Source of the DNA: Acinetobacter sp. ANC 3903 | GTDB taxonomy: Bacteria > Pseudomonadota > Gammaproteobacteria > Pseudomonadales > Moraxellaceae | Assembly: GCF_002135315.1 (NCBI RefSeq) | Contig: NZ_NEGA01000006.1 | Coordinates: forward strand, 124,001-188,000 | DNA length: 64,000 bases | Direction: 5' to 3' | Shown: piece by piece, positions 17,664-26,097 of the stretch | Layout of the letters: every line of letters starts with the position of its first letter | Position numbering within the stretch: the stretch's first letter is position 1 | Notes under the pieces: generated by a model | Told to the model about the DNA's origin: nothing | Databases searched by the model: none | The model's input: the letters and a program-made list of their open reading frames with translations, nothing else | Program-made: the position numbers and the translations under genes

Positions 17664-18088
17664 GAGAAGATCAAGTAAATAGAGATGAACGAATTTATTG
17701 CGATATATGCCATACAAAAGAGATATTCAATCCTATTCATCGAATGAGTAGTCGAATACGCCTATGTGTTGAGTGTGCAAGAGAAGTAGCCAATCTATAT
17801 GTTTATGATTTTGAAGTTCGTTGGATAGATGCGGACTATGCAGAAAAATATGGGTCAGCAACTAAGAGCAAAGTTCGCAAAACCCTTCCTAATGCTACAA
17901 GAGAATTCATTTTTAAACGAGATGGCTATACCTGTTTGCATTGTAAGAGCACAACCGATTTATCAATAGATCATATTATGCCTGTTGTGCATGGTGGTGG
18001 CGATGAATTGGAGAATCTCCAAACATTATGTCGTGTCTGTAATTCTAAAAAAGGTTCTAACCTTTTAAGTGAGGTTGACCATGAGTAA
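17660..18088 (+). CDS. HNH endonuclease with N-terminal zinc ribbon
   Basis: 142 residues. N-terminal CDICHTK with a later CVEC forms a zinc ribbon; the C-terminal 60 residues are a classical HNH nuclease: YTCLHCKSTTDLSIDHIMPV, NLQTLCRVCNSKKG, in which DH is the metal-binding pair, Asn the second element and CxxC pairs bind zinc. It would nick or cut DNA. It sits in the replication operon and overlaps the next gene, not beside the terminase, so a role in early DNA processing is likelier than packaging. Confidence 0.85.
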   Translation: MREDQVNRDERIYCDICHTKEIFNPIHRMSSRIRLCVECAREVANLYVYDFEVRWIDADYAEKYGSATKSKVRKTLPNATREFIFKRDGYTCLHCKSTTDLSIDHIMPVVHGGGDELENLQTLCRVCNSKKGSNLLSEVDHE

Positions 18089-19133
18089 GTTTGTTCCAAA
18101 TTCCTTTCAGCTTACAAATGCATTCGTTGACGAAGCGATGAATAAAATCAGTGATGCTTCAGTCAAAATCTATTTGTTAATTGTGAGAAAAACTCGAGGT
18201 TGGGGAAAAGAGAGTGATTCACTGTCATTAAGTCAGTTAGAAGCACTGTCTAAAAAAAGTCGTCCTACGGTTGTGAAATGCTTAAATGAACTGATAAAGG
18301 TCGGATTAGTCAAGAAGGGTCATCAATCGAAATTTGGTAATGTTTATTCGTTAATTGATAACTACAGCATTGGTGAAATTATTAAATTCCCTAGTAAAAA
18401 ATCTTTACTAGTAAAAAACTTCACACCATTCAAAAATGGACTAGTTAAAAATTTTAACTATCCTAAACTTGATGGCAAATTAGACAAAAAATCAGTTCAG
18501 ATATTAAGCGAAATACGCTTAAATTTTCCTAGTAAAAATTCTTTACTAGTTAAAAGTTTTAACCAGACTAGTAAAATATTTTTACCGCAACTAGTAAAAA
18601 TTTTTAACACACAAAGTAAAACTATCAAAAGAAACTATCAAAATAAAAAAAAGAGCTGGTTAATTTTGAAAAATTTGAAAGATGAAATTGCTTTGGCAAA
18701 TGATTCAATTCCAGTTGAGAAAATCACTGAGGCCACTTGGTTCAATCGTGAGTTAACTGCATTTGAAAATTTCAATGCTGAACGAAATCACAACCAAGGA
18801 TTCAAAATTTATTTGTTCGCTGATTGGTTGATCAAGGCGTATTTCAAATACGAAAAACAGACCAATTTGAAATCAGCTCTGGATAATCCTCAGAAACAAT
18901 CTGGCTCAGAACGTAAACCCACAAACCTTAGTGAAAAACAGATTCACACCTTCGCTCAGAAACTTTCCCAGCATCCTGAGTTTTCAAGCAAGTTCTCTGA
19001 ACCAGGTGAGTCCTACGAAAAACTTGCAGCTCGTATCGCCGTAAAACTCGAAGATCCAGCACAAGCCAAAAAATGGGAATCGTATTTGAAACAGGTTGGG
19101 TTCAATGGATCACTCCCGGGAGCTGCAGCATGA
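18081..19133 (+). CDS. Phage replication initiator, O-like
   Basis: 350 residues from the ATG at 18081 (a start 12 bases earlier lacks support). The N-terminal 100 residues match replication protein O: FVPNSFQLTNAFVDEAMNKI, then the winged helix ISDASVKIYLLIVRKTRGWG with LEALSKKSRPTVVKCLNELI. Residues 105-185 are encoded by a repeated DNA tract and read as LVKNF/LVKSF repeats, matching lambda, where the origin lies inside O. The C-terminal part would recruit the host helicase machinery; no DnaC- or helicase-like partner is seen nearby. Confidence 0.8.
   Translation: MSKFVPNSFQLTNAFVDEAMNKISDASVKIYLLIVRKTRGWGKESDSLSLSQLEALSKKSRPTVVKCLNELIKVGLVKKGHQSKFGNVYSLIDNYSIGEIIKFPSKKSLLVKNFTPFKNGLVKNFNYPKLDGKLDKKSVQILSEIRLNFPSKNSLLVKSFNQTSKIFLPQLVKIFNTQSKTIKRNYQNKKKSWLILKNLKDEIALANDSIPVEKITEATWFNRELTAFENFNAERNHNQGFKIYLFADWLIKAYFKYEKQTNLKSALDNPQKQSGSERKPTNLSEKQIHTFAQKLSQHPEFSSKFSEPGESYEKLAARIAVKLEDPAQAKKWESYLKQVGFNGSLPGAAA
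18391..18601 (+). repeat. Iteron cluster, probable phage replication origin
   Basis: CTAGTAAAA or CTAGTTAAA occurs seven times, starting at 18391, 18408, 18441, 18529, 18546, 18568 and 18591. Six fit into two close groups around a gap. The surroundings are very AT-rich. The tract lies inside the O-like gene, as the lambda origin does. Confidence 0.7.
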
Positions 19134-19390
19134 CTGATGCAGAGCGCACGTATACAAACCTGATGATCTTCAAAACAATGGCATCAACCAAAGGCCGCAT
19201 CTCTGTTAAACAAATTCATGCAGCGATAGAGCCAAACATGGGGATTTCAATTCGTAGTTTGCAGCGTTACCTGAATGATCTGGCTCACTGGGGATTGGTG
19301 GCCAAGGATGGTGAAACACCACAGGGATTTAGCTTAACTCACCATGCAAAACAGCTTTTTGCAGAGTTGGCCAGTGGGACAGATGCATGA
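19130..19390 (+). CDS. Small winged-helix-like phage protein
   Basis: 86 residues from ATG 19130, which overlaps the stop of the replication gene (ATGA). The upstream open part is not used. The pattern ISVKQIHAAIEPNMGISIRS then LQRYLNDLAHWGLVAKDGE is a winged-helix of the DeoR/MarR kind, so DNA binding is likely. In the replication operon; may assist initiation or regulate it. Confidence 0.6.
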   Translation: MTDAERTYTNLMIFKTMASTKGRISVKQIHAAIEPNMGISIRSLQRYLNDLAHWGLVAKDGETPQGFSLTHHAKQLFAELASGTDA

Positions 19391-19794
19391 CCAGCTACTC
19401 AATTGCTGAATACAAGAAAATGATTGGGGCACCTAAACCTAAACGAGGCTCTAAGCGTCCTAAGGTCAAGGATGAGAAAGTACCGAATGAGTTTGAAGTA
19501 AAGTTGGCTAGGGAGTTAAGGGCCCTAAAAATCAACTTTGAACAGGAATACCAATTTCACTCAAAACGGAAATGGCGAGCTGATTTCCACCTGGTAGGCA
19601 AAATGATTTTGGTCGAAGTTGAAGGTGGGATCTGGAGTGGTGGCAGACATACGAGAGGTAAGGGATACATTGGGGATATGGAGAAATACAACGCAGCAGT
19701 AATGATGGGTTACCAGGTAATACGGTTTAGCACAGAGCAAGTAAAGTCAGGTTTGGCGGTTCAGCAAATAGAGAAGATGGTTGGAGATTTATAA
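19387..19794 (+). CDS. PD-(D/E)XK-like nuclease, DUF559-like
   Basis: 135 residues. Core motif from about residue 55: WRADFHLVGKMILVEVEGGI, with Asp of RADF and Glu-x-Glu of VEVEG as the metal-binding residues, then HTRGKGYIGDMEKYNAAVMM and a final YQVIRFS strand. This is like small Vsr/DUF559-type endonucleases. It may resolve branched DNA during replication, as RusA does in other phages at this position. A diverged copy lies at 25660-26097. Confidence 0.65.
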   Translation: MTSYSIAEYKKMIGAPKPKRGSKRPKVKDEKVPNEFEVKLARELRALKINFEQEYQFHSKRKWRADFHLVGKMILVEVEGGIWSGGRHTRGKGYIGDMEKYNAAVMMGYQVIRFSTEQVKSGLAVQQIEKMVGDL

Positions 19795-19796
19795 CG

Positions 19797-20297
19797 ATGA
19801 GTACTGCAGTAGCGAAGCAACATATTTTACAGTCGGTGGATTGGTCACGTTTTGATTTAGAAGGCTGGTTACAGCAGTTTGGGGCATGGTTATATACCAA
19901 CACAAGTTCAAGCGGTCGTACTGTGAATCCTATCGCCGTGGCTATGGACAATGCTGTAAAGGCGAAGAAATCTAAAAAGCTTAATTCTGACCAGCAGCTG
20001 CAAATTATTGCGGACTATCTCACTGGGGACTATGTACCACCTAAACCACGTAAAACGAAATTGACTTGTGAAATTGATGACAATGAAGCTCGAGCAGTTC
20101 AGCGTCTGGTTTTGGATCTGCAGGGGCAATCAGAAGTACTGGATGATTGGATCGATGCCATTATTAGCCGTTATTTTTACAGCTGCTCATGGTCGGAGAT
20201 GGTGACAGATGAACGCAGTCAGTTAGATGCCCGGATGGATGTGAAGTGTGGGTTGGCTGCGTTGCATAGTCGGTATGGGTTTATTGAGTTTATTTAA
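19797..20297 (+). CDS. Putative Q-like late antiterminator
   Basis: 166 residues, last gene of the early rightward operon, 2 bases after the nuclease stop. WSRFDLEGWLQQFGAWLYTN at the N-terminus and the C-terminal WSEMVTDERSQLDARMDVKC resemble phage antitermination Q-family proteins. Such proteins load on RNA polymerase at the late promoter and let it pass terminators. Many terminators lie in the late region here, which agrees. Family call rests mostly on position and local resemblance. Confidence 0.6.
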   Translation: MSTAVAKQHILQSVDWSRFDLEGWLQQFGAWLYTNTSSSGRTVNPIAVAMDNAVKAKKSKKLNSDQQLQIIADYLTGDYVPPKPRKTKLTCEIDDNEARAVQRLVLDLQGQSEVLDDWIDAIISRYFYSCSWSEMVTDERSQLDARMDVKCGLAALHSRYGFIEFI

Positions 20298-20388
20298 TTT
20301 TGGAGCTAAAAGGATTAAAAGTTTATTGACCTTGGTCTAACTCCATAGTTTTGAATAAAGATAATGGAAACCGAGAGAGATCATTGTG

Positions 20389-21093
20389 ATGGAAGAATTG
20401 CTGAAAGAAACACCTATATTGGACTATAACCACCTTTTAATAAAAGATTTAATTGAGCAAAGAAAATGGAATGAGTTAAGTGATGCAGAAAAAGTCAAAA
20501 ATATTTATAACTTTGTTCGAGACGAGATTAAGTTTGGCTATAACACTGGGGACACGATTTCTGCTTCTGATGTTTTAAAAGCTGGCTATGGCCAATGCAA
20601 TACAAAAGCAACTTTATTGATGGCGCTGTTAAGAGCAGTCAAAATACCGACTCGACTGCATGGCTTCACTATTGATAAAGAGCTACAGAAAGGGGCGATT
20701 GACGGTATCTGGTATAAGCTTTCACCTAAAAACATATTACATAGTTGGGTAGAGGTTTATGTGAATGAGCATTGGTATATTTTGGAAGGAGTCATTCTTG
20801 ATAGGGAGTATCTTCAAGAACTAAGAAACATCAATAAAAACGTCACTAAGACATTCTGTGGTTTCGGAGTATTTACTGATAATTTTGATAATCCACCTAT
20901 AGACTGGAATCTAAATAATACTTTTATTCAAGACAAGGGAATTAACCAAGACTTCGGTATATTTGATAGCCCTGACGATTTTTATAGAAGTCACCAGCAA
21001 GAGCTTAGTTATATTAAAAGTCTATCTTTTAAGTACTTTATAAGACATTTAATGAACAGGAATGTAAATACGATTAGGAATAAACATAATTAG
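20389..21093 (+). CDS. Transglutaminase-like cysteine protease-fold protein
   Basis: 234 residues from ATG 20389 (an adjacent GTG is possible) with GAGAGAG upstream. The papain-like transglutaminase triad is visible: Cys in GYGQCNTKATLLMALLRAV near 80, His in LHSWVEVYVNEHWYILEG near 125 and an acidic residue just after. Bacterial members are mostly proteases or amidases. No signal peptide, so cytosolic. It is AT-rich and stands between the antiterminator and the reversed xseAB genes: likely cargo, maybe host takeover or defence. Substrate unknown. Confidence 0.7.
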   Translation: MEELLKETPILDYNHLLIKDLIEQRKWNELSDAEKVKNIYNFVRDEIKFGYNTGDTISASDVLKAGYGQCNTKATLLMALLRAVKIPTRLHGFTIDKELQKGAIDGIWYKLSPKNILHSWVEVYVNEHWYILEGVILDREYLQELRNINKNVTKTFCGFGVFTDNFDNPPIDWNLNNTFIQDKGINQDFGIFDSPDDFYRSHQQELSYIKSLSFKYFIRHLMNRNVNTIRNKHN

Positions 21094-21118
21094 AATTTAT
21101 CTAGGTCTTAACTTAAAC

Positions 21119-21313
21119 CTATTCCTTAAAAGTCTCATTCAAAGCCTGTTGCACTGCATCTACACGTGACTTGCAGGCTTTGTAAGCAGACATAGACTCT
21201 TCAACGATCTTCATCAAATTATCAATATCAGGTTCTTCTTGCGACTCAAGCAATTCAGCATTCTTTTTAAGAACTTCATAACCTTCTTTAAATGTTAATT
21301 CTTTTTTAGTCAT
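21119..21313 (-). CDS. xseB: Exonuclease VII small subunit
   Basis: 64 residues, a helical hairpin typical of XseB: LTFKEGYEVLKKNAELLESQ, followed by ESMSAYKACKSRVDAVQQAL. Several copies wrap the large subunit in the E. coli enzyme. It overlaps xseA by 8 bp downstream, giving coupled synthesis. Finding it inside a prophage is unusual. Confidence 0.8.
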   Translation of the reverse strand: MTKKELTFKEGYEVLKKNAELLESQEEPDIDNLMKIVEESMSAYKACKSRVDAVQQALNETFKE

Positions 21314-22568
21314 TGCTTATTACCTGAGTCACTGTGGCTTCGATGATACCATCCTGTAATTCTATCTGGATGCTGTCACCTGAAATTTGTTGGATGGAAC
21401 GAATGGCTTTGCCATGGCTACGAACGATACCGTAACCCTTGGCCATCACATTACGGGGATTCTGTAATAGGGTTTCACGCATCAATGAATCAACCTGATT
21501 GGAGGCTAATTTGATTTGCTGTTGGGCTAAGTATTGCAATGTACCTTTCATCAAATCCAGGCTTTTATTGGCTTCATTGATCTGGCCATGAGCAAGCGTT
21601 TTAATTACTCGGAGGTACTGGTCATTTTGGCTTTGATACGCCGTGATCTGGTGCTGGGACAATAGCTTGATCGTTTGTAGAGAATCTAAAACTTCCTGGG
21701 TGCGTTCAACAATTAGATTGCGAATACCGCCAATTACTTTGCTAGGTGTATCAAAAGACCGGTGCGCCACTTCATCCAGAATGGTTCGATCTTTTTCATG
21801 GCCAATACCCACCCATATAGGAACTGTACGTTTACAGAGTAGGGCGGCCAAATCATAGTCATTCAAATAGGCCAGATCATTCACAGCACCGCCACCACGA
21901 ATAATCACAATCAGATCTGGTGCAGCTTTAAAGTCTTTAGCCCACTGACGTAAACCATCGCCCAATGAACCAATGATTGAAGCTGCAGCTGTATTTCCCT
22001 GAAAGGTCGCGTTGTGATAAACAAAATGGCAAACACCGGCTTTATCTAAGGCATCTGCATCTTTCTTGAAGTCACCTAAACCTGCAGCATTTTCAGGGGC
22101 AATGACCAGGACATTTTGAATATCGAATGGAGTGGGGAGTAGCTTATTTTTATTAGCCAAACCTTCAAAAGTTAAGCGTTCTAATATCTGCTGATAGCGC
22201 CGTGCTATATCACCTAAGGTGTAACTTGAATCAATATCTTCAACATTAACCGAGAAACCGAATTGAGGGCTGAAAGTAGCTTTAATCTTAATCAGAACGT
22301 TCAGATCTCGAGATAATTCAATTCCGCTTTCTCGCTCAAACTTTAATACCATTTTTGCTGCAGCAGATTTCCAGATCGTCGCTTTGCAACTGGCAATCAC
22401 TTTGTCTGTATCTTCTTCTTTTTCAGCCAGCTCTAAATAGTAGTGTCCACCTTTAATACTTAAATTCCTAATCTCAGCTTTAACCCATACCGGTTCATCG
22501 AAAGTTACACGTATAACTTCTTGTACAGTTGAAAGGTATTCACTTAAGGAAAGCTGAAAGTCGGGCAT
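21306..22568 (-). CDS. xseA: Exonuclease VII large subunit
   Basis: 420 residues from ATG 22568 (the frame is open to a TTG at 22586). N-terminal OB fold (VWVKAEIRNLSIKGGHYYLE), catalytic domain from about 125, with VLVIAPENAAGLGDFKKDAD, IIRGGGAVNDLAYLNDYDLA, VGIGHEKDRTILDEVAHRS and DTPSKVIGG, all diagnostic of XseA, then the coiled-coil that carries XseB. Length is slightly below the E. coli enzyme. ExoVII degrades single-stranded DNA from both ends. The pair is reversed relative to the phage operons, so it has its own promoter and probably entered as a cassette. Confidence 0.88.
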   Translation of the reverse strand: MPDFQLSLSEYLSTVQEVIRVTFDEPVWVKAEIRNLSIKGGHYYLELAEKEEDTDKVIASCKATIWKSAAAKMVLKFERESGIELSRDLNVLIKIKATFSPQFGFSVNVEDIDSSYTLGDIARRYQQILERLTFEGLANKNKLLPTPFDIQNVLVIAPENAAGLGDFKKDADALDKAGVCHFVYHNATFQGNTAAASIIGSLGDGLRQWAKDFKAAPDLIVIIRGGGAVNDLAYLNDYDLAALLCKRTVPIWVGIGHEKDRTILDEVAHRSFDTPSKVIGGIRNLIVERTQEVLDSLQTIKLLSQHQITAYQSQNDQYLRVIKTLAHGQINEANKSLDLMKGTLQYLAQQQIKLASNQVDSLMRETLLQNPRNVMAKGYGIVRSHGKAIRSIQQISGDSIQIELQDGIIEATVTQVISND

Positions 22569-22639
22569 GGAAGAGAGGATTTCCAAGATTATTAATGAAA
22601 ATAGTATATAACCATGAAAATAAAGGCAATGTAGATATA

Positions 22640-22668
22640 TTGACCTTGCGCAAGGGATATGGCATATT
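22640..22668 (+). promoter_or_regulatory. Promoter with palindromic operator in the spacer
   Basis: TTGACC (22640-22645), 17 bases, CATATT (22663-22668). The spacer begins with the perfect 12-bp palindrome CCTTGCGCAAGG (22644-22655). It points to the small genes on the right and also lies 70 bases upstream of xseA, so a repressor here could control both sides. Confidence 0.45.
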
Positions 22669-22717
22669 TCAGGTATAGTGATCGAAGTGTACGTTAAAGC
22701 ACTAGATTGATTTAAAA

Positions 22718-22741
22718 GCTCGCCAAATGGTGGGTTTTTTT
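22718..22741 (+). terminator. Terminator before small cargo gene
   Basis: GCTCGCC and GGTGGGT pair with G-T steps around AAAT, then seven T. Nearly the same element recurs at 23056 and a related one at 24024. Confidence 0.65.
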
Positions 22742-22791
22742 ATTTGTCACACTCATTTGCTATTCTTTGGAAAAAATACCGGGCTGTTGTT

Positions 22792-23037
22792 ATGAGTGCA
22801 TTAACTAAAGACGAATTACAGTCATTATTGGCAATAGCAATACAAGAGAATGAAGAATTAAAGGAAGAAAACCGAAAGTTATTGTTAATGGTTACTGATT
22901 CTGCTGAGCAAATAAAGAAAGCTGCTTATATTACTGAAGAGTATCAGCGAATGTTTAATGAGATTACCGAAGCGCTTAGAGCTCGTTATCCTGAAGGGTT
23001 TAATGTTGTTGAATATATTCCAAAACACCTAAGTTAA
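22792..23037 (+). CDS. Small coiled-coil phage protein
   Basis: 81 residues from ATG 22792; a TTG at 22744 would extend it into the terminator and is rejected. Residues 8-60 are a continuous amphipathic helix (LLAIAIQENEELKEENRKLL), likely a dimerising coiled coil. No strong ribosome-binding site. Stands between two near-identical terminators. Function unknown. Confidence 0.5.
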   Translation: MSALTKDELQSLLAIAIQENEELKEENRKLLLMVTDSAEQIKKAAYITEEYQRMFNEITEALRARYPEGFNVVEYIPKHLS

Positions 23038-23055
23038 TTCATATAAAAAAATTGA

Positions 23056-23080
23056 AGCTCGCCAAATGGTGGGCTTTTTT
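23056..23080 (+). terminator. Rho-independent terminator
   Basis: GCTCGCC-AAAT-GGTGGGC hairpin and six T, a close copy of the one at 22718. Confidence 0.7.
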
Positions 23081-23126
23081 CATATTGCCGATGGTATAGT
23101 GGGCTACCAAATCAGTAATTTGTTTT

Positions 23127-23414
23127 ATGTCAGAATTTTATAAATACCGATACACTCAAATAAGTGTATTGGGTTCATTACCAACACACAAAGTGCTTAT
23201 AAGTAATATCCCTAATAAAGCAAAATTGGTATTTGCCGATAATACTTTTATATATGGCTCAATTTCTGATTGGGTGTTAGGTAATTCAGATTTTGATTCA
23301 CGAGCATCAACATGGCTAGAAGAGCCAAAGGCTTTTTTGGAAGATGAGAGAAGAAGACTGAGCCTTTATAGGGCTTCTCATCCGTTGTTTAAGACTGAGC
23401 CGAGTATGGGTTAA
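23127..23414 (+). CDS. Hypothetical prophage protein, 95 aa
   Basis: Soluble, with a small beta-rich N-terminal half (VLISNIPNKAKLVFADNTFI) and a helical, charged C-terminus. The ATG has no clear ribosome-binding site; GTATAGT 30 bases upstream could be a -10 element. No known family. Confidence 0.45.
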   Translation: MSEFYKYRYTQISVLGSLPTHKVLISNIPNKAKLVFADNTFIYGSISDWVLGNSDFDSRASTWLEEPKAFLEDERRRLSLYRASHPLFKTEPSMG

Positions 23415-23508
23415 GATGTTTAATTAATCTAATTGCCTCTGTAAGTGACTATATTTCTAATAAAGTTTGCTTTGATGCTGCTTATGACGTATAAAGTCAC
23501 CTCGTTGA

Positions 23509-23585
<77 letters not shown>

Positions 23586-23610
23586 ACGAAAAAAGATTCA
23601 AAGTTTATAG

Positions 23611-23637
23611 CCCAGTCTACCCAGACTGGGTTTTTTT
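23611..23637 (+). terminator. tRNA terminator
   Basis: CCCAGTCT and AGACTGGG, perfect 8-bp stem, loop ACCC, seven T. Supports a separate tRNA transcript. Confidence 0.9.
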
Positions 23638-23768
23638 ATGGCTGCTTTATGTATAAAGCAGCAGTGTGAATATTTGTATTAGTGATGATCTAGAAGGGCA
23701 AACTTTTTTGATACGAGATATTCATAAAATTAAAGTATGATGTTTTTTTAGGTTTCAGTTCAATTCAA

Positions 23769-24005
23769 ATGCCAAATATCAGTGTAAAAAAACTAGATAA
23801 ACTTATTGGTGATATGGTCTCAAAAAATCAAACACCTGAAAAAATATTAATTGGTTATAAGGCTTATGGCGAGCTAATGAAAGATCGCAAATTCTTTGAA
23901 GAAGTGGTCGGTTCAGCTATGGAGCCCAGTAAGCGAAAATATAAGAAGTTTAAAATTAGAGTTACTCAAGATGATTATCAGCTTGAGGTGAAGGGTCTAA
24001 CTTAA
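23769..24005 (+). CDS. Hypothetical prophage protein, 78 aa
   Basis: Lysine-rich and soluble, helical N-terminal half and a beta-strand end (KYKKFKIRVTQDDYQLEVKG). Weak translation signal. A terminator follows. No family recognised. Confidence 0.5.
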   Translation: MPNISVKKLDKLIGDMVSKNQTPEKILIGYKAYGELMKDRKFFEEVVGSAMEPSKRKYKKFKIRVTQDDYQLEVKGLT

Positions 24006-24023
24006 TAGATTGATATATCACTA

Positions 24024-24052
24024 AAAGCTCGGTCATTTGATCGGGCTTTTTT
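24024..24052 (+). terminator. Rho-independent terminator
   Basis: AAAGCTCGGTC and GATCGGGCTTTT pair around ATTT, followed by T. Confidence 0.75.
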
Positions 24053-24118
24053 GTTGCCTAGTGTTTTTGATGCACAAATGAATTTGTCTCTCAAAATAAC
24101 CAAAAAAGGAGAATCAAA

Positions 24119-24531
24119 ATGCCAGCATATGCATAAGGGTATTGCGCCACCCGAACCAAGGGCGATTTTGATTTGTGATGTCGTACGTTAATTTGTTCGG
24201 CTACCAGCGCAAACGGTGGGATGCAGAAACCAGCCGTATAAGTGGTTTGAATCCAATGTGATTTCGTCACACATTGAGTTAGCCTCAGAGCCTTCAGTTG
24301 TGGGTGACACCCCGCCTAAAAAGAACGAAAAACATAAAAGTAAAATCAATAGCTAACTTTGAGTTTACGAGTAGTGTTAAGTAGCGGTAGATCAGTTGCC
24401 GAGCTGATTAATATCGAAACTAAAGGCAAGGGTGTGGCAGATCACCACATCCTTTTTATGCCTTGAGAAATGCCCGTGTAAGCAATATCAGGGCACCTAG
24501 ATTCTAATTCCCTAGAGTTCGCTGGAATTAA
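24119..24531 (+). ncRNA. Candidate structured regulatory RNA
   Basis: About 400 bases with no credible gene in any frame, but with a row of hairpins: CCGAAC/GTTCGG with flanking A-T pairs (24151-24200), AAACCA/TGGTTT (24227-24248), CAATGTG/CACATTG (24254-24277), ATCAG/CTGAT (near 24391-24408), an AAGGCA/TGCCTT stem enclosing GGGTGTGG/CCACATCC (24423-24464), TGCCC/GGGCA (near 24471-24495) and TAATTCC/GGAATTA (near 24504-24530). A strong ribosome-binding site precedes a five-codon ORF (MPAYA) at 24119. The first 200 bases remind me of prophage immunity RNAs such as the P1/P7 C4 antisense RNA; that is unverified. Confidence 0.45.
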
Positions 24532-24546
24532 ATTATAAAAAGACAT

Positions 24547-24795
24547 TTACCCTGCTGACGGTACCTTTATAAATGAAGGGACCATATCGAGTATATTAAC
24601 GTAATGGTGAGCTTTTTTAATATTTAATAAATCATTAATTAAGTTTTTATAATATATTGATTTGTCTTGTATTATTTTAATTTTTGGAATATTTAGCCAG
24701 TGAAAACTATTTGAATAGTGTACAAAATGGTCAATAGAAACTGCTGTAGTTTCTGAATGACCTCCCAAGGTCCTTAGTTTATAAGCCCACGTCAT
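24547..24795 (-). CDS. Doubtful leftward ORF, 82 aa
   Basis: Very AT-rich frame whose start has GGAAAG 1-6 bases upstream but lies inside the terminator of the opposite strand. The product has no motif. It faces the hairpin-rich noncoding region tail to tail. It may be real cargo or chance. Confidence 0.25.
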   Translation of the reverse strand: MTWAYKLRTLGGHSETTAVSIDHFVHYSNSFHWLNIPKIKIIQDKSIYYKNLINDLLNIKKAHHYVNILDMVPSFIKVPSAG

Positions 24796-24819
24796 CTTTC
24801 CATGTGTGGGCTTTTTTTT
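24784..24819 (+). terminator. Rho-independent terminator
   Basis: AGCCCAC and GTGGGCT with a 16-base loop and eight T. It would end any rightward transcript from the noncoding region. Confidence 0.7.
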
Positions 24820-24834
24820 GCATGGAGAAAAGCA

Positions 24835-24948
24835 ATGCTCCGTTTGTTAATGTGTTTATTCGGCCTACATGGTGCGACAGAAATCGATTACACAATTGAT
24901 GATGAAGAAATCAAGGTGTGTCGAGATTGTTTGAAAGAAGTTAAATAA
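24835..24948 (+). CDS. 37-residue CxxC protein
   Basis: Begins MLRLLMCLFGLHGATEIDYT and ends with VCRDCLKEVK. The LFGLHG opening followed by a late CxxC is a common small phage zinc-binding layout. GGAGAAAAGC precedes the ATG at a good distance. Too short for usual ORF cutoffs but well supported by its signal and the terminators on both sides. Confidence 0.6.
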   Translation: MLRLLMCLFGLHGATEIDYTIDDEEIKVCRDCLKEVK

Positions 24949-24975
24949 TTTGCCGGACGTATTACGGCACATAAG

Positions 24976-25009
24976 ACCCCGCTAAATATGCATTATTGGT
25001 GGGGTTTTT
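24976..25009 (+). terminator. Rho-independent terminator
   Basis: ACCCCGC and GGTGGGGT pair around a 16-base loop, then five T. Confidence 0.6.
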
Positions 25010-25030
25010 CTTTTCTTATTGGTGGTGTCT

Positions 25031-25177
25031 ATGGCTTATATCGTAGTGGCTTTTGTATCGTTCCTTATTGGATATGCTTTGTGTTTTAGATGGTTCCAGA
25101 AAGACATTATTGAAGGAAAGCCAATTGTGTTTAACAAAGGTGTGTATGTAGCTACCAAAAAGAAGATTGAACCATGA
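25031..25177 (+). CDS. 48-residue membrane protein
   Basis: One N-terminal transmembrane helix (MAYIVVAFVSFLIGYALCF) and a short basic cytoplasmic tail. Its stop overlaps the next start (ATGA), so the two are coupled. Weak GGTGGTG site upstream. Function unknown. Confidence 0.55.
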   Translation: MAYIVVAFVSFLIGYALCFRWFQKDIIEGKPIVFNKGVYVATKKKIEP

Positions 25178-25347
25178 CAGACAAAGTACAAGCGAAACAA
25201 GACTTAGAATTTTGCAGTGCTGAGCTGTCTAAGTATCAGAATCTCAGTCGATCAGGTTTAAAGCATCACCAGTTAATGGTGATTGATGAAATCATGATTG
25301 GGCTTAAAGATCGGATTAAGAATTTACGTACGGTACTTTATGCATAA
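25174..25347 (+). CDS. 57-residue helical phage protein
   Basis: Starts MTDKVQAKQDLEFCSAELSK; entirely helical and soluble. The 4-bp overlap with the 48-residue membrane gene argues that both are real. No family recognised. Confidence 0.55.
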   Translation: MTDKVQAKQDLEFCSAELSKYQNLSRSGLKHHQLMVIDEIMIGLKDRIKNLRTVLYA

Positions 25348-25423
25348 TAATTTGCCAAATTAGTACAAATTAATTAAATTAGTTATTCAATAATAATTAA
25401 CTACTAATTTAAGGTAAATCAAA

Positions 25424-25659: not shown

Positions 25660-26097
25660 ATGGACATAGATGACTATTTCTGGAAAACCAAGAAACGCCC
25701 ACATAAAACTAAATCGCGCACTAAGCCTCTACCAAAAGCAAAAGAGGCATATTTAGAAGAGGAAGAAACCTTATTTCAAGAATTAGAAGAATATCGAATT
25801 GGTTATCGACGGAAGTTTCAATTTGAATCAACCAAAAATTGGCGGTTTGATTTTTACATTGTGAAGTTAAATCTTCTTATCGAAATCGCTGGTAGCCCAT
25901 GGTCAGTTGGTCGTGGTGGGAAAAAGATAGCAAATGCATTTTCCAAATACGATGATGCTGAAGAAATGGGATACACATTTGTGCGTCTTGAGCCTCATCA
26001 AATTGAGTCGGGTTATGCAATTAACTGGATTAGAGGTCAGTTGGAGAGATTAGAAGATGGACCAGTTCAGACCATTCCCGCCGACAGATCTGATTGA
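25660..26097 (+). CDS. Diverged copy of the DUF559-like nuclease
   Basis: 145 residues from ATG 25660 (a GTG at 25651 is possible). Its C-terminal 85 residues follow the protein at 19387-19794: WRFDFYIVKLNLLIEIAGSP against the other copy's WRADF...VEVEGG, then GYTFVRLEPHQIESGYAINW. The first Asp and Glu are kept, but the second acidic residue of E-x-E is Ala here, so activity may be reduced or changed. It overlaps the metallopeptidase gene by 41 bp and opens the packaging block. Confidence 0.6.
   Translation: MDIDDYFWKTKKRPHKTKSRTKPLPKAKEAYLEEEETLFQELEEYRIGYRRKFQFESTKNWRFDFYIVKLNLLIEIAGSPWSVGRGGKKIANAFSKYDDAEEMGYTFVRLEPHQIESGYAINWIRGQLERLEDGPVQTIPADRSD

Follow-up and report, generated by a model that had tools for sequence, protein, structure and literature searches.

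A larger form of the Rfam RNA RF03046, with predicted kissing loops and pseudoknots, between a Q-like gene and the terminase gene of an Acinetobacter prophage

In phage lambda, the 6S RNA is a late leader behind pR' that is made from the late promoter adjoining gene Q and ends at tR'. Another small, structured RNA, the C4 antisense immunity RNA of P1 and P7 (RF01695), is found in prophages, and one account describes C4-like RNAs in A. baumannii (PMC5320573). GOLLD and ROOL are knotted RNAs of phages and prophages; they are described as often lying beside tRNA genes, with a function that is not known and with sizes of 659 nt for a ROOL RNA and above 800 nt for many GOLLD RNAs (PMC12286853). The closest described system is the Rfam family RF03046 (Pseudomonadales-1), for which a table entry reports one additional covarying base pair in Rfam 15 (PMC11701678). 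Our literature search located no paper on the function of Pseudomonadales-1 / RF03046, the discovery paper lying outside the literature searched. The RNA family itself is known; for its wider anatomy (extra helices) and late-gene context, we found no earlier account in print in the literature searched.

We analyzed a stretch of 64,000 nucleotides from Acinetobacter sp. ANC 3903 (the window), in which a preliminary description had marked 24119-24531 as a hairpin-rich region within a prophage. The segment 24253-24409 on the forward strand belongs to RF03046. It matches the covariance model end to end (model positions 1-164 of 164) at 110.6 bits, against a curated cut-off of 68 bits, with an E-value of 4.1e-25, and is the single match in its own genome at E ≤ 0.001. 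The prophage RNA is hence a further member of this catalogued family and has the same order of helices as the Rfam model: P1 and P3 are 99-100% paired with changes on both sides, P2 is 95.1% paired without such changes, and P4 was observed in several copies. Compared with the nested alignment line that cmscan prints for RF03046, the RNA described here also has a 5' domain, a mini-ORF, a predicted kissing contact between the P1 and P2 loops and two predicted pseudoknots, all of which are absent from that line.

The other relationships first proposed fared less well. The Rfam scan that returned RF03046 covered the C4, GOLLD and ROOL models, as the preliminary description had advised; none of the three matched in the 64-kb window at the Rfam cut-offs, and relaxing the threshold to E 5 for 23400-25400 brought up no match to them either. 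The suggested kinship with the C4 RNA of P1/P7 was thus not borne out, although the genome's own C4 RNA was detected at 68 bits on another contig (C25:165391-165478, L228); the present RNA differs from C4 in lacking a model match, in its place in the prophage, where the late genes start and not in an immunity region, and in having variable loops that pair internally. GOLLD and ROOL remain analogies only, with the present RNA far smaller at about 200-340 nt. Lambda 6S RNA resembles it in the inferred use of a late promoter next to Q, but the present RNA lies beyond a tR'-like terminator and has a conserved knotted fold. RsaF, MicX and other weak Rfam look-alikes (E 0.016-3) fell below their cut-offs and were rejected.

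The RNA and its parts are as follows, all on the forward strand; counts of changed pairs refer to 28 A-type copies.

24107..24111 and 24119..24136, +, ribosome-binding site AGGAG and mini-ORF MPAYA*, read from the sequence
24137..24252, +, optional 5' structured domain, outside RF03046, predicted from an alignment
24253..24409, +, RNA core, RF03046 Pseudomonadales-1, covariance-model match of 110.6 bits
24254..24276, +, P1 hairpin, 7 pairs, 4 changed on both sides, 99.0% of cells paired
24277..24283, +, predicted PK1 5' strand AGUUAGC, 7 pairs, 3 changed on both sides, 99.5% of cells paired
24302..24312, +, P2 hairpin, 95.1% of cells paired, no pair changed on both sides
24331..24378, +, P3 hairpin; outer helix 24331-24335/24374-24378 (5 pairs, 100% of cells paired, 2 changed on both sides); inner helix 24346-24349/24359-24362 (4 pairs, 99.1% of cells paired, 1 changed on both sides)
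24352..24358, +, predicted PK1 3' strand GCUAACU in the P3 apical loop, from the cis-versus-swap test and the A-type alignment
24390..24409, +, P4 hairpin, seen in the model alignment and in copies
24396..24400, +, predicted PK2 5' strand UUGCC in the P4 loop, from comparison of copies
24425..24429, +, predicted PK2 3' strand GGCAA, past the end of the Rfam model
24429..24457, +, terminator-like hairpin with T run, AGGGTGTGG/CCACATCCT followed by TTTTT, read from the sequence

Relatives of the RNA were found mainly within the genus. RF03046 matches occurred in 44 of 149 sampled Acinetobacter genomes, 41 of them above the cut-off. A sample of the host's family gave matches in 14 of 149 genomes (11 Acinetobacter and three in two other genera, these three all below the cut-off), and an order-wide sample of 293 genomes gave a match in the present genome alone; the larger surveys ran with filters that miss some weak matches. 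At the DNA level, the window copy and one B-type copy were each compared with 50,697 phage-isolate records and 72,556 plasmid records, and neither revealed a relative of the RNA. Two matches at E 0.5 fell behind the RNA and others lay at 24949-25014, which is not part of it; the rows listed for a longer B-type query were mostly tRNA-Trp genes, with two Acinetobacter records among its 169.

Two sets of copies were compared. The genome set began as 65 places in the 149 genomes; removal of the four weakest (32.9-38.1 bits, below the cut-off) left 60, or 61 with the window, and among the 60 two further copies (L069 and L070) score below the RF03046 cut-off. These copies are not independent, because near-identical prophages are included (L074/L075, L081/L082, L055/L056). 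The IMG/VR set comprises at least 80 loci picked by a pattern within P4 that fixes UUGCC. Together, the 61 genome copies and the 80 IMG/VR loci listed make 141 loci; a 133-copy set omits eight IMG/VR loci in which the start of P1 was not located, and a 54-row alignment omits L069. The B-type alignment holds 37 of 53 rows starting with CCT and excludes types D, E and others, L069, and the B-type copy L037, which has lost P2. Cis-versus-swap tests and separate A- and B-type alignments were used because cross-type alignment with MAFFT misregistered the pseudoknot strands.

The region is indeed rich in stable hairpins, as first described. Folding was more stable than that of shuffled sequences both for 24119-24531 (z -2.88, 0 of 100 equally stable) and for 24253-24457 (z -3.69, 0 of 200). 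In 28 distinct A-type cores, 30 pairs, including non-nested ones, were paired in 98.6% of cells, compared with 94.1% for the same pairs with shuffled partners and 28-39% when they were slid; the shuffle comparison may be inflated by the relatedness of the A-type copies, and the slid controls are free of this bias but favor a structure derived from these very sequences. Ten of the 30 pairs showed changes on both sides, a number that 0 of 500 shuffles reached. Covariation, the check proposed for homologous prophages, is therefore present in the form of compensating changes, which support the earlier suggestion that a conserved RNA rather than a protein is under selection.

Comparison of copies points to a kissing contact between the P1 loop (GUCA, 24266-24269) and the P2 loop (UGAC, 24305-24308). 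The partners differ among core types: GUCA/UGAC in A, UGCU/AGCG or UGCC/GGCG in B, CAUCG/UGAUG in C, ACCA/UGGU in D and GCCAA/UUGGC in E. When loops were swapped among 43 distinct loop pairs, the score fell from 9.05 in cis to 7.43, and none of 5000 permutations reached the cis value; L037 and L070 dropped out of this test, and the P2 loops of several copies, that of the window among them, were misregistered yet retained. Loops taken with their stem arms gave 11.9 in cis against 10.6 when swapped, above all 2000 permutations. Within types, the signal is sparser. No A-type kissing pair changed on both sides; in the 37 B-type copies, the lone variable kissing pair was U-A in 21, C-G in 13, U-G in two and broken in one, and two of five measures in the B-type copies were no better than shuffles. 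Some copies deviate from the common plan, L037 being without P2 and L069 without P1.

The P3 apical loop is predicted to pair with the strand that directly follows P1, forming PK1, whose cis score was reached by 0 of 2000 permutations. The same pairing can be written with other letters in other copies, as AACAUGC/GCAUGUU in type B, AUAGG/CCUAU in type C and AGUGGGC/GCCCAUU in L035. Outside Acinetobacter, L094 and L095, from another genus of the family, show AAUGCAC/GUGCAUU by eye, and PK1 could not be confirmed in L096, the third weak match. For the A-type kissing and PK1 pairs taken alone, the count of doubly changed pairs was reached in 22 of 500 shuffles and the count of pair types in 172; no shuffle came up to the observed covariation score, the share of paired cells or the tally of doubly changed cells. 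PK2, between the P4 loop and a strand about 25 bases away, fits 112 copies by pattern, 79 of them in the commonest form; there are some compensating changes, such as GUGGCC/GGCCAC in L045, and a few copies with three pairs only. Only the GGCAA-side strand is informative in the 80 IMG/VR loci, because their selection pattern fixed UUGCC. Overall, compensating changes support both proposed pseudoknots and, across types, the proposed kissing loops.

The hairpin at 24429-24457 is likely the 3' end of the RNA, judging from its sequence. Counting from where P1 starts, a hairpin of this terminator-like kind comes 120-270 bases on in 51 of the 61 genome copies, compared with 76 of 305 random stretches from the same loci; the remaining 10 lack one under the rule of our script, and a terminator scan with other rules did not list the window's hairpin. 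The coordinates originally given were right, but the RNA with its terminator-like hairpin stops at 24457, and 24458-24531 is a separate flank. This flank holds a separate hairpin at 24459-24495, TGCC(C/T)TGAGAAAT ... TCAGGGCA, which also stands behind the terminator-like hairpin in L079; hairpin starts resembling it were seen by eye in L033, L087, L107 and others. Sorted by 3' end, the 61 genome copies comprise 35 with P4-PK2, 11 with a CCACAG hairpin, 10 with a GCCCC terminator and five that no pattern fitted; by eye, two of these five are P4-PK2-like and two CCACAG-like. PK2 was not seen in the CCACAG and GCCCC ends (21 of 61 genome copies).

Upstream of the core, the strong ribosome-binding site leading into a five-codon ORF (ATG CCA GCA TAT GCA TAA) is present as first described. 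Among 31 A-type copies with the 5' domain, 30 have a start codon after a purine motif 110-136 bases before P1, with a stop after two codons (11 copies), four (8), five (9) or 14 (2); L089 keeps the mini-ORF and misses the purine motif. These counts have no chance control, the motif list is lenient and several domain copies hold more than one candidate; 44 of 95 copies without a recognized 5' domain also show some mini-ORF candidate upstream. To see whether the mini-ORF leader might begin a protein-coding cassette, 44 leaders were used as queries; they led to 38 places away from the RNA, and two of the six distinct places listed start frames of 35 and 21 codons. The mini-ORF may, sometimes, be a point of ribosome entry. 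The 5' domain itself was recognized by pattern in 31 A-type and 15 C-type copies of the 141, at least one more C-type copy (L042) being missed. In 22 non-redundant A-type copies, seven of its 24 predicted pairs outside P1 changed on both sides, mostly within one hairpin, the structure having been predicted from the same alignment used for counting and without a shuffle control.

The combination of core type, 5' domain and 3' end varies among copies. By eye, the window and L032 share a common leader with a ribosome-binding site and a five-codon ORF (MPAYA and MPVFA, respectively), behind which the window has an A-type RNA and L032 a C-type RNA. The same leader before different core types suggests an exchange point at the mini-ORF.

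The prophage neighborhood includes an integrase-looking frame near 6.7 kb of the window (by eye), a replication O-like gene at 18069-19133 and the following features around the RNA.

19797..20297, +, Q-like antiterminator gene, PHROG 79 at E 6.4e-32, Pfam Phage_antitermQ at E 1e-4, below its cut-off
22640..22679, +, late-promoter-like element, hexamers TTGACC and CATATT separated by 17 bases, spacer palindrome; 9 of 12 consensus positions and TG before the second hexamer
22714..22739, +, tR'-like terminator-like hairpin, from a terminator scan, with the same layout elsewhere by eye
23509..23585, +, initiator-type tRNA-Met (CAT), ARAGORN, Rfam tRNA at 62.9 bits
27198..28604, +, terminase large subunit, PHROG 38 at E 4.9e-118

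This order recurs among relatives. Of 86 loci, 51 have a Q-like match upstream on the same strand (not found in 35, contrary in none); of the 79 loci long enough for the test, 61 have terminase downstream, likewise on the RNA strand (not found in 18, contrary in none), the queries being five terminase and two Q sequences taken from these loci. The distance from the Q match to the RNA was measured in 73 loci, and in 24 of them the RNA starts 111-162 bases past the end of the match. A promoter scan of 20200-25200 returned 10 sites compared with 16.7 in shuffles, i.e., fewer than chance; support for the putative late promoter therefore comes from its recurrence behind Q matches in other prophages. 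Across 148 Acinetobacter genomes, the late-promoter pattern occurs at 61 sites, spread over 48 of the genomes, and in 25 of the 61 the RNA follows within 8 kb on the same strand (contrary in none, no RNA within 8 kb in 36), which is not an unbiased rate because the pattern was built from promoters already seen before the RNA. In these 25 cases, one with an RNA below the RF03046 cut-off, promoter and RNA are 105-6823 bases apart; in the window, they are about 1.6 kb apart, with frames, the tRNA and other terminator-like sites between them. When the slot behind the late promoter was scanned for other RNA families in 15 loci, two tRNAs were the only matches.

Several further features of the neighborhood were observed. 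The late promoters carry a palindrome of about 10-12 bp between the hexamers that differs between phages by eye (CCTTGCGCAAGG, TGGCATGCCA, TGTCTAGACG and others) and may be a type-specific binding element for Q. A gene for a transglutaminase-core protein (20386-21093, Pfam PF01841, E 1.7e-17) comes right after the Q-like gene. Between the Q-like gene and the late promoter, on the opposite strand, sits an ExoVII-like pair, namely a large-subunit-like gene (21119-22586, Pfam E 4e-46) with a weak small-subunit match below the cut-off. Two PHROG 503 genes (19387-19794 and 25660-26097) bracket the stretch from Q to terminase, and the latter is also weakly like HNH and homing endonuclease profiles.

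The initiator-type tRNA, previously placed about 530 bases from the region, ends 534 bases before 24119, and the proposed link with tRNA genes extends to relatives of the RNA. In the 61 genome copies, which were not selected by context, 22 have a tRNA within 1.5 kb, all on the same strand, and 39 have none; this 1.5-kb range makes up 16% of the bases in these loci and holds 23 of their 29 tRNAs, all on the RNA strand. In 17 of the 61, the RNA start is followed 150-330 bases on by the start of a tRNA, and 45 of the 80 IMG/VR loci listed have a tRNA near the RNA. Across the 141 loci, the kinds found within 1.5 kb were Arg(tct) 43, Met(cat) 20, Trp(cca) 14, Ile 2 and Val 1. The prophage tRNA-Met has three G-C pairs in its anticodon stem and a U1-U72 mismatch, where the usual initiator form is C1-A72. 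Right behind the RNA in L081, L082 and L089 is a tRNA-like sequence apparently without an anticodon arm, where relatives have an intact tRNA-Arg (by eye).

Whether the conservation could instead reflect a short protein, encoded through the 5' domain and P1 with RNA structure secondary, turns on the frame reading SSHIELASEPSVVG. Contrary to the initial statement that no gene exists in any frame, this frame is a 46-codon ORF (24216-24356), although it does not behave like a gene. Of 38 A-type copies, 19 keep an ORF of at least 30 codons in the SSHIELASEP frame (17 among the 31 that have the 5' domain), as a coding frame might, and the two remaining forward frames each do so in a single copy of the 38; the ORF spans 30-57 codons in those 19, never reaches 60, and is shorter than 30 in the other 19. 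In gap-free 5'-domain columns, minor letters fill 6 cells at codon position 1, 19 at position 2 and 7 at position 3, so that position 2 and not position 3 varies most, and the A5 columns, phased by hand, likewise vary mostly at position 2. In 24 distinct copies, upstream landmarks were out of phase with the frame in five and four and a downstream GAAA in eight. Searches of PHROG and Pfam with this frame and three neighboring frames returned nothing, even with E-values as high as 1 allowed, and the compensating base changes also stand against a protein. An intact protein frame elsewhere, which would have spoken against an RNA, is thereby weakened as an objection, even with half of the A-type copies open for 30 codons or more. 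We consider a protein very unlikely and read the open frame as a by-product of the conserved RNA. A C4-like antisense immunity RNA of the prophage is less credible still. The RNA is small, structured and prophage-borne, in a genus with many C4-like RNAs, but it is missed by a model that finds C4 elsewhere in the genome, it occupies a late-gene position, and no complementary target in the window rises above chance: the longest perfect complementarity to the rest of the 64 kb is 12 bases, compared with 11-16 in 40 shuffles per strand, in a perfect-run test that would miss short or imperfect pairing such as C4's own.

The choice between action in cis and in trans is less clear-cut. The RNA might be a cis-acting leader of the late operon that serves in pausing, antitermination or stabilization of late mRNA, with the mini-ORF coupling it to translation; the put RNA of HK022 is a precedent for antitermination of this kind. 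Such a leader would be expected where the RNA is found: it shares the strand of terminase and follows Q in every locus where these genes were detected, and in some loci (the 24 with the short Q-to-RNA distance) it comes immediately after the first terminator. It would sit uneasily with the widely varying distance from the promoter, with the frames, tRNA and terminator-like sites that intervene in the window, and with the RNA's own terminator-like hairpin in most genome copies, and we judge it rather unlikely. The variable distance, that hairpin and the combination of core types with different ends all favor trans over cis action. A terminator-like hairpin with a T run and several core types would equally suit a base-pairing regulatory RNA, whose type-specific single-stranded parts would target host or phage mRNAs. 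The variable loops, however, pair inside the RNA, leaving no shared free seed evident, and its perfect complementary runs with the prophage window are no longer than chance would give; these two points disfavor an antisense role, which we regard as improbable.

With the balance close to even, we favor a stable RNA that is made late, as a larger form of RF03046, and acts in trans during lytic growth. This form would comprise the mini-ORF, the 5' domain, the core, the pseudoknotted 3' module and the terminator-like hairpin. It would be part of a late transcript that starts at the promoter behind the Q gene, and Q would pass the polymerase through the next terminator, such that the RNA is made early in the late transcript. 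Release would come about through the RNA's own hairpin and, in relatives, also through cleavage at the tRNA behind it, and the kissing loops and two pseudoknots may hold the RNA as one compact particle. Once released, the stable RNA could act in trans in lytic growth, perhaps on host translation or RNA machinery; the suggestion of translation or the tRNA machinery as target is a guess prompted by the nearby tRNA genes.

More tentatively, the RNA could represent a further class of tRNA-linked, knotted phage RNAs, parallel to GOLLD and ROOL and far smaller. RNAs of this possible class would have exchangeable, internally co-varying cores, head the Q-controlled late operon of Acinetobacter phages, sometimes be entered by ribosomes via the mini-ORF, and be released late to act on the host translation machinery. 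For RF03046, the present analysis provides a testable anatomy, with non-nested helices and compensating changes, a place in the phage program, in the late region downstream of Q, and an association with tRNA genes. The small size of the RNA suits chemical probing and, if it does act in trans, it would offer a compact model for the role of tRNA-linked phage RNAs such as GOLLD and ROOL.
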